Position numbers and translations under genes: made by a program. From contig JAISXK010000087.1 of NCBI GenBank assembly GCA_031270585.1, positions 1-38,913 on the forward strand: a stretch of 38,913 bases of DNA. Direction: 5' to 3'. Below are positions 32,553 to 38,144 of this stretch, piece by piece. The notes beneath the pieces were generated by a model. It ran no database searches, had not been told where the DNA came from, and saw only the letters and a program-made list of their open reading frames with translations. The DNA comes from Clostridiales bacterium (GTDB lineage Bacteria > Bacillota > Clostridia > Christensenellales > CAG-138). Each line of letters begins with the position of its first letter. Position 1 is the stretch's first letter.

Positions 32553-33494
32553 ATGCCCAGTACAGTCAGCATGGTGTTGCAGGCCGCCATACGCGGCTTT
32601 CGGCCTCTGTTAAACAATTTAAGTTTGGAAATTGAACGCGCGGGACAGGATGTACTGGGCTCGGGCGAATCAAAACGCCTGCCCGAAAACATGGTGGTCG
32701 CCCCCGTAATGATAGGTAAAATACGCGCGGAATGGTTCCACACGCTTGGCGCGCCGGACGACGAGGCGCTGATCTATTACCACGGTGGCGCGTATATGAC
32801 CGGCAGCATAGAGAGCAACCGCATACTGGCGGTGGATTTTGCAGAGGCCACGGGCCGCAATGTATTATCCTTTGAGTACCGTCTCGCGCCGGAAAACCCC
32901 TTTCCCGCAGCGCTTGAAGACGGGCTTGCCGCCTATCAATACGTGCTGGATCTTGGGATAGAGAACAATCGTATCGCACTGGTGGGCGAGAGCGCCGGCG
33001 GCGGGCTTGAAATCTCCACCGCGCTGAAGGCGCGCGCGCTGGGTATACCGCTGCCGGCGGCTATCGTGGCGCTTTCCCCCTGGACGGATCTGACGCTGCG
33101 CGGCGCGAGCTACACCGAAAACCAGGCCAGCGACCCGCTGCTGGAGCGCAGGAAGCTCGTGCGCGCCGTGATGTATTACGCCTACGGGCAAAGCCTGCAA
33201 AACCCCTATATTTCGCCATTATACGCCGATTTTCATGGTTTCCCGCCCACGCTGATACACGTGGGCACGCATGAACTGCTGCTAAGCGACGCCCGGCAGC
33301 TTGGAAAGGTTATGCGGCGCGACGGCGTGGATGTGCGCCTGGAGGAATGGGCGGGCATGTGGCATGTATGGCATGTATTCGACCTGCCGGAAAGCCGCGC
33401 CGCCATGGAGGATATCGCGCGGTATGTGCTCGCGCGCATACGCAAGGCTACGCCCGCGCCAAACGCCGGCGAAGCGGCGCGGGGAGGCGCGTAA
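32553..33494 (+). CDS. Alpha/beta hydrolase, HSL-family esterase
   Basis: 313 residues of the hormone-sensitive-lipase esterase family. The oxyanion motif is YYHGGAY (His77-Gly79), the nucleophile is Ser147 in GESAGG, the acid is probably Asp246 in LLLSDA, and the base His271 in MWHVWH. YRLAPENPFPAALED is typical of the family. It likely hydrolyses short acyl esters, in the cytosol (no signal peptide, though residues 1-50 are a helical cap). GAGG stands about four bases before the ATG. It is followed after three bases by the condensation-fold acyltransferase and then DUF6320, forming one unit that starts 59 bases after prfB. Confidence 0.9.
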   Translation: MPSTVSMVLQAAIRGFRPLLNNLSLEIERAGQDVLGSGESKRLPENMVVAPVMIGKIRAEWFHTLGAPDDEALIYYHGGAYMTGSIESNRILAVDFAEATGRNVLSFEYRLAPENPFPAALEDGLAAYQYVLDLGIENNRIALVGESAGGGLEISTALKARALGIPLPAAIVALSPWTDLTLRGASYTENQASDPLLERRKLVRAVMYYAYGQSLQNPYISPLYADFHGFPPTLIHVGTHELLLSDARQLGKVMRRDGVDVRLEEWAGMWHVWHVFDLPESRAAMEDIARYVLARIRKATPAPNAGEAARGGA

Positions 33495-33497
33495 GCC

Positions 33498-34760
33498 ATG
33501 CAAAAGCGCGAATGGTATCCGCTCGATAACGCCGCGAACATATACCCCGTTATACAAAACAGCCGGTGGACATCCATGTTCCGCTATATGGCGGCGCTTA
33601 CCGCTCCTGCAAATATCGACGCGCTGCAGCGCGCGCTCGATAAGATGCGCCCGCGTTTCCCAACATTTTATATGCGGCTGCGCAGCGGCATATTTTGGCA
33701 TTACCTTGAGCAGACGGATACCGCAGCCGCCGTGGAGACCGACACATTATACCCTTGCCCGCCCGCCTTTGCGGGCGAACTTCCCTTCCGCATCAAAGCG
33801 TACCGTAACCGCATCGCGGGCGAGTTCTCACACCTGATATGCGACGGCGGCGGCGCAATGAAATTTTTCAGCACGCTGTTGGCGCAATATTACCGCGAGC
33901 AGGGCATTGCCGTACCCACAGGCGGCAATATACTGGCGCTTGACGAGGCGCCGGATCCGGAAGAAAAAGAGAACGCTTTCCCCCGGTTCGCGCGGCAGGG
34001 CGCGCGCGTCACCCGCTCTGAAACCCGCGCCTATAAGGTGAGAGGCACGGCCCTTATGCCCGGCATGTGCTGTGTAACCACAGGGCGGCTCAGCGTGGCG
34101 GCCGTGCTTGATAAGGCGCATGCTTATAAGGTTTCCATAACGGAATACTTAACCGCCACGCTTGTCTATGTGTTGTATGAGCTGCAAAAGGCCGATCATC
34201 CGCAGGGTATGCTCAAGCCCGTTAAAGTAAGCGTACCGGTCAACCTGCGCAAATACTACCCCAGCAAAACGCTGCGCAATTTTTCGCAGTATTTAAACCC
34301 CGGCATCGACCCCAGCCTTGGCGATTTTACGTTTCAGGAGACGCTAGCGCAGACACATCATTATTTCCACTTTATGTTTACGGAAAAAAACCTGAACGCG
34401 CGGCTTTCCATCAACGTAAACGCCGAAAACAACCCTGTGCTGCGGGTGATTCCGCTTTTCATAAAACGCTTGGGCATACGGCTGGTTTATGAGCTTACGG
34501 GCGAAACGGCGTATACATCCGTGCTGTCCAACGTGGGCGCGCTGGAACTGCCCGACGAAATACGCCCTTTTGTTACGCGTTGCGATCTCATGCTTAAAAC
34601 CGCCAGACGTAACGCGGTAGAATGCGGCGTGCTTAGCTGCGATGACGCGCTTTCCATCACTTTCACCCGCGTCATCGCCGAACCGTATGTGGAGCGTATG
34701 TTTTTTAGAAAGCTGGTGCAGGATGGATTACATGTGTTCGTTGAAAGCAATCAGCTTTAG
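33498..34760 (+). CDS. Condensation-fold acyltransferase (alcohol acetyltransferase-like)
   Basis: 420 residues with weak but visible features of the chloramphenicol acetyltransferase/condensation fold: HLICDG at residues 112-117 is the HxxxDG catalytic motif, and VSVPVNLRKYYPSKTLRNF and SNVGALELPDEI match positions conserved in PapA5 and alcohol acetyltransferase-like enzymes. Such enzymes transfer acyl groups from CoA or carrier proteins to hydroxyls or amines. There is no signal peptide. Substrate unknown. A GGGGAGG ribosome site lies within the end of the esterase gene. An adjacent esterase and a membrane protein suggest reversible acylation of a lipid or surface glycan (inference). Confidence 0.75.
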   Translation: MQKREWYPLDNAANIYPVIQNSRWTSMFRYMAALTAPANIDALQRALDKMRPRFPTFYMRLRSGIFWHYLEQTDTAAAVETDTLYPCPPAFAGELPFRIKAYRNRIAGEFSHLICDGGGAMKFFSTLLAQYYREQGIAVPTGGNILALDEAPDPEEKENAFPRFARQGARVTRSETRAYKVRGTALMPGMCCVTTGRLSVAAVLDKAHAYKVSITEYLTATLVYVLYELQKADHPQGMLKPVKVSVPVNLRKYYPSKTLRNFSQYLNPGIDPSLGDFTFQETLAQTHHYFHFMFTEKNLNARLSINVNAENNPVLRVIPLFIKRLGIRLVYELTGETAYTSVLSNVGALELPDEIRPFVTRCDLMLKTARRNAVECGVLSCDDALSITFTRVIAEPYVERMFFRKLVQDGLHVFVESNQL

Positions 34761-34772
34761 AAAGGGGGCGCC

Positions 34773-35480
34773 ATGTCCTACTGTGTGAATTGCGGGGTAG
34801 AGCTCGAAGCAAGCCAACGGCAGTGTCCGCTTTGCGGTGTGGAGGTAAACAACCCAGCCCGGCCATACGACCCCACGTTGCCAAGACCGTATAGCGCGCA
34901 TATCGTGCGCATACAGGCGCGGCTGGAGCGGCGCTACCTCGCGTGGATTATAACGGTGCTGATGATTTTAATCGCCATTGTGTGCGTCATGGTGGATCTT
35001 GTATATTACGGCTCTGTCAGCTGGTCGCTGTATGTGGCGCTAAGCTTGGCGCTCTCATGGATAACCGTGCTGTTTCCGCTGCTGGCCGCGAGCATGCACC
35101 CGGTCATGCTCGTACTGCTGGATGCCTGCGCGCTGCTGGCCTTTTTGTATGTATTGAACGAAAGCGATCCCTCATCCGATTGGTATTTGCGCCTGGCCAT
35201 GCCACAGGTGATGCTTTTTGGCATGCTGGGGCTTTTAAACGTGTTCCTCTGGCGCAGCTCTTTCGTGCACGGCTGGCAGAAGATAAGCGTTGTGGTGGTG
35301 TCCATAGGCGTGGCCATGATGGGGCTTGAGACGCTGCTGGATCTGTTTAACGATATGGCGGTGACGCTTGACTGGTCGTGGTTCGTGATCATACCCGCGT
35401 TTGCCGTGGGGCTGATATTTTTCATACTGGAGCGCAAGCGTCTGCTAAAGGACGCCATTACGAAGCGCCTGCGCATATGA
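34773..35480 (+). CDS. DUF6320-type zinc-ribbon membrane protein
   Basis: 235 residues. An N-terminal zinc ribbon (YCVNCGVE, CPLCGVEV; two CxxC pairs) is followed by a linker of about 30 residues and six hydrophobic helices, starting AWIITVLMILIAIVCVMVDL. This arrangement matches proteins annotated DUF6320, which I recall next to alcohol acetyltransferase-like genes in gut Clostridia. Function unknown. It starts 12 bases after the acyltransferase with AAGGGGG four bases before the ATG, so the three genes are co-transcribed. The ribbon could tether the acyltransferase to the membrane (inference). Confidence 0.8.
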   Translation: MSYCVNCGVELEASQRQCPLCGVEVNNPARPYDPTLPRPYSAHIVRIQARLERRYLAWIITVLMILIAIVCVMVDLVYYGSVSWSLYVALSLALSWITVLFPLLAASMHPVMLVLLDACALLAFLYVLNESDPSSDWYLRLAMPQVMLFGMLGLLNVFLWRSSFVHGWQKISVVVVSIGVAMMGLETLLDLFNDMAVTLDWSWFVIIPAFAVGLIFFILERKRLLKDAITKRLRI

Positions 35481-37709: not shown

Positions 37710-38144
37710 ATGTTTAACGGACGATATGGGAACGACAATTTGAACCGAACGCTGTGTATGGCGGCGTTTATACTGGTAACGCTTAACGCCATAATAAGCG
37801 TTTTCGCGCGGGATTCGGCGTTGCGCATGGTGCTGCTGCCGGTGGGGTTTTCCTTGTTCGCCTTTGCGGTCTTTCGCATGTTATCGCGCAATATAAACAC
37901 GCGTAAAAAGGAGAACGAAAATTTTTTGCGCATGAGCATGCCGCTCAGAACCCGCTTTTACGCATGGCGCGACAAGGCGCCGCGCGCGCAGCGGACCGGG
38001 AAGAACCCAACATTCAGCGATATGCGCAAGTACAAATATTTTTCCTGCACGCAATGCGCGCAAAGGCTGCGCGTACCGCGCAAAAAGGGCAAGCTGCTCG
38101 TTACTTGCAGCCGTTGCGGAAACAAATTTGAGATAAAATCATGA
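37710..38144 (+). CDS. Two-helix membrane protein with C-terminal zinc ribbon
   Basis: 144 residues. Two hydrophobic helices at residues 15-60 (CMAAFILVTLNAIISVF; VLLPVGFSLFAFAVFRML) are followed by a basic linker of about 50 residues and a C-terminal zinc ribbon with two CxxC pairs (FSCTQCAQRLRVP, TCSRCGNKFEI). The ribbon is probably cytosolic and could bind nucleic acid or protein; no named family known to me. GAGGG precedes the ATG. It starts 43 bases after the GH13 gene and 19 bases before a DUF1858 gene, so it may belong to the same transcript. Confidence 0.75.
   Translation: MFNGRYGNDNLNRTLCMAAFILVTLNAIISVFARDSALRMVLLPVGFSLFAFAVFRMLSRNINTRKKENENFLRMSMPLRTRFYAWRDKAPRAQRTGKNPTFSDMRKYKYFSCTQCAQRLRVPRKKGKLLVTCSRCGNKFEIKS

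Follow-up and report, generated by a model that had tools for sequence, protein, structure and literature searches.

A recurrent esterase, acyltransferase and zinc-ribbon DUF6320 gene trio of Clostridia as a candidate membrane-attached acetylation and deacetylation unit

Three adjacent genes in a 38,913-nucleotide stretch of DNA from a Clostridiales bacterium (contig JAISXK010000087.1, positions 1 to 38,913, hereafter the window) encode an HSL-type esterase, a condensation-fold acyltransferase and a membrane protein that combines a zinc ribbon with a DUF6320 domain (Table 1), and this trio is, on balance, probably a membrane-attached unit for the acetylation and deacetylation of an alcohol-type molecule. 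Gene order, folds, intact active sites and fusions support this reading. The tight packing described in an earlier, sequence-only reading of the window is confirmed by open reading frames on the forward strand, with gaps of 3 bases between the esterase and acyltransferase genes and 12 bases between the latter and the DUF6320 gene. Its central idea, that enzymes for adding and removing an acyl group form a set with a membrane partner, stands because the grouping is conserved and includes fusions.

Table 1. Positions of the trio and its key motifs in the window, with the loci bearing esterase-acyltransferase fusions
Feature	Position	Strand	Basis
HSL / family IV (Abhydrolase_3) esterase gene (gene 1), 313 aa, GESAG type	32553..33494	+	PF07859, GESAG_HSLs and EstD11 matches
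Catalytic Ser147 in GESAG	32991..32993	+	invariant in 42 window-type and 85 mixed esterases
Catalytic acid Glu241, ELL motif	33273..33275	+	E in 42/42 window-type esterases
Catalytic His271	33363..33365	+	invariant in 42 window-type and in mixed esterases
Condensation-fold O-acyltransferase gene (gene 2), 420 aa, AATase-like	33498..34760	+	AlphaFold and Foldseek; AATase PF07247 in homologues
HxxxDG active-site motif (His112, Asp116, Gly117; H112-LIC-D116-G117)	33831..33848	+	homologue alignment
SN-x-G motif (Asn345, Gly347)	34530..34538	+	both invariant in 81 homologues
Zinc-ribbon and DUF6320 six-helix membrane protein gene (gene 3), 235 aa	34773..35480	+	PF19845; structure model
Four-Cys zinc ribbon (C4-x2-C7...C18-x2-C21)	34782..34835	+	homologue alignment
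Six-helix membrane region (DUF6320)	34932..35435	+	PF19845 and structure model
Esterase-acyltransferase fusion loci: L017, L020, L027, L066, L068, L078, L079, L084, L089, L090, L091, L093, L098, L107, L112

The grouping recurs in other Clostridia, as the sequence-only reading had stated, and also beyond them. A GTDB genome scan recovered 578 relatives of the acyltransferase, and in the best 80 loci, for which neighbourhoods were counted, DUF6320 adjoins the acyltransferase in 72 and the esterase does so in 41. Among 51 acyltransferase loci from 147 evenly drawn genomes of a single class, that of the window, DUF6320 lies directly downstream of the acyltransferase in 48 while an esterase is adjacent in only 14, and the acyltransferase-DUF6320 pair is present in about a third of the sampled genomes. 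In other parts of the phylum the corresponding counts are 5/7 for DUF6320 and 4/7 for the esterase; the genomes compared are mostly metagenome-assembled. Thus, the expectation of a conserved gene order holds for the acyltransferase and DUF6320, whereas the esterase is often found apart. The trio is not a chance arrangement, given that dozens of genera share its gene order. No recurrent fourth gene was found in the 131 loci, and the upstream genes differ among those without an esterase.

At the center of the trio, gene 2 is predicted by its AlphaFold model (pLDDT 93.6) to be a two-lobed condensation-fold enzyme of the CoA-dependent acyltransferase superfamily. Foldseek matches this model to NRPS condensation domains, TRI3 and PapA5 (best E 2e-17, probability 1.00), with TRI3, the trichothecene 15-O-acetyltransferase, at a TMq of 0.64. 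The HxxxDG motif, already recognized from the sequence, is compatible with the predicted structure at the level of the fold; its His112 and Asp116 are kept in 81/81 acyltransferase homologues and Gly117 in 98%. While the fold and this motif are shared with PapA5, TRI3 and the NRPS enzymes, gene 2 differs from them in that a PDB sequence search returned nothing significant and in that carrier-protein or PKS/NRPS genes do not recur near the acyltransferase loci; a condensation role in NRPS or PKS assembly was rejected on the latter ground. In terms of sequence, gene 2 is related to the AATase family PF07247 rather than filed in it, scoring 20.9 bits under a Pfam gathering cut-off of 22, and 27 of 44 homologues match that family at E<=0.01. 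Certain variants of the family may also be mentioned. Five acyltransferases (L150, L152, L153, L154, L162) bear an N-terminal extension of 76–159 aa, for which no Pfam match was found in the two scanned (L150, L162), and the DUF6320 protein is devoid of the ribbon at three of these five loci (L152 and L153, as well as L162 from outside the class). Five others (L035, L037, L042, L057, L088) lack a neighboring DUF6320 and lie close to genes for short-chain reductases, acyl-CoA synthetases or ABC transporters; these are perhaps paralogues with another role.

Gene 3 matches DUF6320 (PF19845) at 31.0 bits, above the gathering cut-off of 29.9, and 21/21 homologues match this domain at E<=0.01. The description of a six-helix protein with a zinc ribbon is borne out by a model (pLDDT 87) with six long helices and a short C-terminal helix, and by the four ribbon cysteines, which are present in 73/73 near homologues and 43/48 class-wide. 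Basic segments, as judged by eye, precede helix 1 and follow helix 6, which suggests that the ribbon and both ends of the protein face the cytosol. No fold relative of the model was found in the PDB (best E 1.0), and a known transporter fold was discarded for want of such a match; a search of the available literature likewise found no paper naming DUF6320. In one locus, an acyltransferase without DUF6320 is followed by a gene for a YccF inner-membrane domain (L165:3412-3882; PF03733, E 3.4e-25), possibly an alternative membrane partner.

The product of gene 1 can be placed by its sequence among the family IV/HSL esterases, and ester hydrolysis is its predicted activity. It matches PF07859 (Abhydrolase_3) with E 8e-55 and the NCBIfam model GESAG_HSLs with 8.4e-74, under that model's cut-off; its closest solved relative is EstD11 (E 7.8e-64), and it carries the hallmarks of the bacterial family in the form of a GxSxG serine (Ser147), HGGA at residues 77-80, Glu241-LL and His271. 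The earlier assignment to the HSL family with an intact triad is therefore retained in part: the acid is Glu241 and not Asp, because the GTHELLL of gene 1 aligns with the GTAETLL of EstD11, and a Ser-Asp-His triad is thereby ruled out. Glu241 sits in an (E/D)xL motif (GTH-E-LLL), and the position at which a GxDE reading places Asp is occupied by His240. Family IV esterases with Ser-Glu-His are already known, as in EstD04 (PMC10385968), whereas other esterase subfamilies linked to the acyltransferase use Asp (DPLRDEG). EstD11 and EstD04 share with gene 1 the GESAG/GDSAG serine, the HGG oxyanion motif, (E/D)xL and the catalytic His, but they have been studied as stand-alone general esterases uncoupled to an acyltransferase.

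Gene fusions also tie members of the trio to one another. The esterase is joined in frame to the acyltransferase in 15 relatives; these fusions form one clade of one origin (support 95/90), and all 11 that were checked for both halves have two intact active sites. In the locus L146 the acyltransferase is instead fused to DUF6320, which there lacks the zinc ribbon, a loss to be expected if the ribbon serves to hold the acyltransferase, although this is a hint and not proof; the ribbon is also absent from four unfused DUF6320 proteins, so docking through it would not be universal. The linked esterases span several HSL subclades (GESAG with Glu; GDSAG with DPLRDEG and Asp; L138 with L146; L143 with L148), all of which keep Ser, Glu/Asp and His, and unlinked esterases are interspersed among them such that the well-supported branches require no fewer than five changes of linkage. 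This pattern may reflect repeated recruitment or a single old linkage with subsequent replacement and loss, and either origin implies a functional tie. By a model built from the linked members, unlinked esterases co-occur with the acyltransferase in 15/33 genomes versus 6/99 (Fisher p 1e-6, uncorrected for phylogeny).

The sequence-only reading gave no described function for such a grouping, and on this point it has to be revised, as an orthologue of gene 2 with published acetyltransferase activity sits in the trio. Clo1313_1074 of Clostridium (Acetivibrio) thermocellum, when expressed, acetylated 2-phenylethanol (20 mM, 48 h) and not linear C2-C10 alcohols, according to the available text of Poudel et al. 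2021 (PMC8112048), which also reports an esterase/lipase in the same operon and TRI3 as a template, assigns no physiological role, and in that text does not mention the zinc-ribbon/DUF6320 membrane protein or the fusions. When the published forward primer was searched against the genomes of the family of genome G157, it was found exactly in one, G412, with an exact match to the reverse primer at the gene's opposite end (locus L190), and by this match G412 is taken as C. thermocellum or a strain very close to it. At L190 the esterase, acyltransferase and zinc-ribbon DUF6320 genes follow in order, each reading frame overlapping the next; with both primers exact there, Clo1313_1074 belongs to the trio. 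Its operon resembles that of the window in acyltransferase family and in gene order, but its esterase is of another HSL subfamily (GDSAG, DPLRDEG, catalytic Asp). The two acyltransferases are 28% identical over their full length (E 2e-56), which, along with the many acyltransferase-DUF6320 pairs without an adjacent esterase, counts against the proposed unit, and 2-phenylethanol may be a surrogate for the native substrate. The trio nevertheless gives DUF6320 a firm functional context by linking it to an enzyme with a measured activity, and C. thermocellum offers a tractable host in which the natural substrate could be found.

Under the proposed acetylation/deacetylation mechanism, the acyltransferase would transfer the acetyl group of acetyl-CoA (or possibly the acyl group of another acyl-CoA) to the hydroxyl of an alcohol, which would probably be bulky, hydrophobic or aromatic and accessible from the cytosolic face of the membrane. 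DUF6320 would tether this otherwise cytosolic enzyme to the membrane, probably by docking through its zinc ribbon, and the adjacent or fused esterase, presumably sharing the substrate, would hydrolyse the ester so formed. Together, the two enzymes could set the acetylated fraction of the target molecule, although a single polypeptide that makes and cleaves one and the same ester would, without regulation, cycle wastefully. A comparable division of labor is known from yeast, where the AATase Atf2 acetylates sterols and the HSL-type enzyme Say1 deacetylates those to be kept (PMC4076087). Both systems pair an AATase-family acetyltransferase with an HSL-type deacetylase, and the window esterase matches the Say1_Mug180 model at 38.5 bits (cut-off 21); the yeast proteins, however, lack a DUF6320/zinc-ribbon partner and act on sterols at the ER and lipid droplets. 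Hence, by analogy, the trio most likely works like the Atf2/Say1 cycle without being a member of that system. A bolder and somewhat doubtful extension is that it represents a bacterial system that is widespread across Clostridia and has not been described before. In this view, DUF6320 with its zinc ribbon would be a membrane platform for an O-acetyltransferase and the esterase that opposes it, and the system would control, in an Atf2/Say1-like manner, how far a hydrophobic metabolite or a lipid residing in the membrane is acetylated.

The same yeast cycle has been described in terms of detoxification (PMC4076087), and the trio might similarly acetylate inhibitory alcohols such as 2-phenylethanol or other amino-acid breakdown products, with DUF6320 exporting the ester and the esterase rescuing molecules meant to stay. 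The reported preference of Clo1313_1074 and the six-helix nature of DUF6320 fit this scenario, but it is unlikely, given that DUF6320 has no detectable relation to transporters and that the trios of rumen, gut, digester and spirochaete genomes share no nearby alcohol-producing genes.

PapA5 and other condensation-fold enzymes esterify lipid diols, and the fold match of gene 2 to PapA5, together with the near-constant membrane partner, would be in keeping with the reversible acyl modification of envelope lipids or glycans that the sequence-only reading had favored. This target was not upheld and is improbable: no signal peptide was seen by eye in any of the three proteins, no glycan, lipid or other envelope-synthesis gene recurs in the 131 loci, and the only activity measured in the family has a small aromatic alcohol as its substrate; an envelope target is conceivable only in the form of a lipid of the inner leaflet. 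Just as improbable is acyl exchange or neutral-lipid turnover. Here the esterase would expose a hydroxyl to which the acyltransferase then attaches a different acyl group, or the pair would make and mobilize storage esters along the logic of WS/DGAT plus HSL. HSL enzymes hydrolyse lipid esters, the fusions with both sites intact fit sequential use, and one acyltransferase-DUF6320 pair has the gene for an AMP-binding acyl-CoA synthetase immediately upstream (L105:8020-9699), but a WS/DGAT Pfam match was found in 0/44 family members and the one tested orthologue used acetyl-CoA and a small alcohol. Finally, gut-specific bile-acid acylation, as in the 3-O-acyl bile acids of Christensenella, is unsupported because the trio or its core pair is not confined to the gut: C. 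thermocellum has it, as do genomes from sediment, digesters and spirochaetes.

The surroundings of the trio vary. In the window it is flanked by secA and prfB upstream and a GH13 enzyme downstream, neither of which recurs among the loci of relatives, and an operon of the trio with prfB/secA was rejected, the arrangement not being kept elsewhere and promoter matches equaling those of shuffled sequence. In the Spirochaetes genomes (L064, L080, L092), DUF6320 adjoins the acyltransferase in two of three cases, and these acyltransferases likely reflect transfer between phyla. Farther along the window, positions 37710-38144 encode a small membrane protein with a C-terminal zinc ribbon (a weak Zn_ribbon_4 match).
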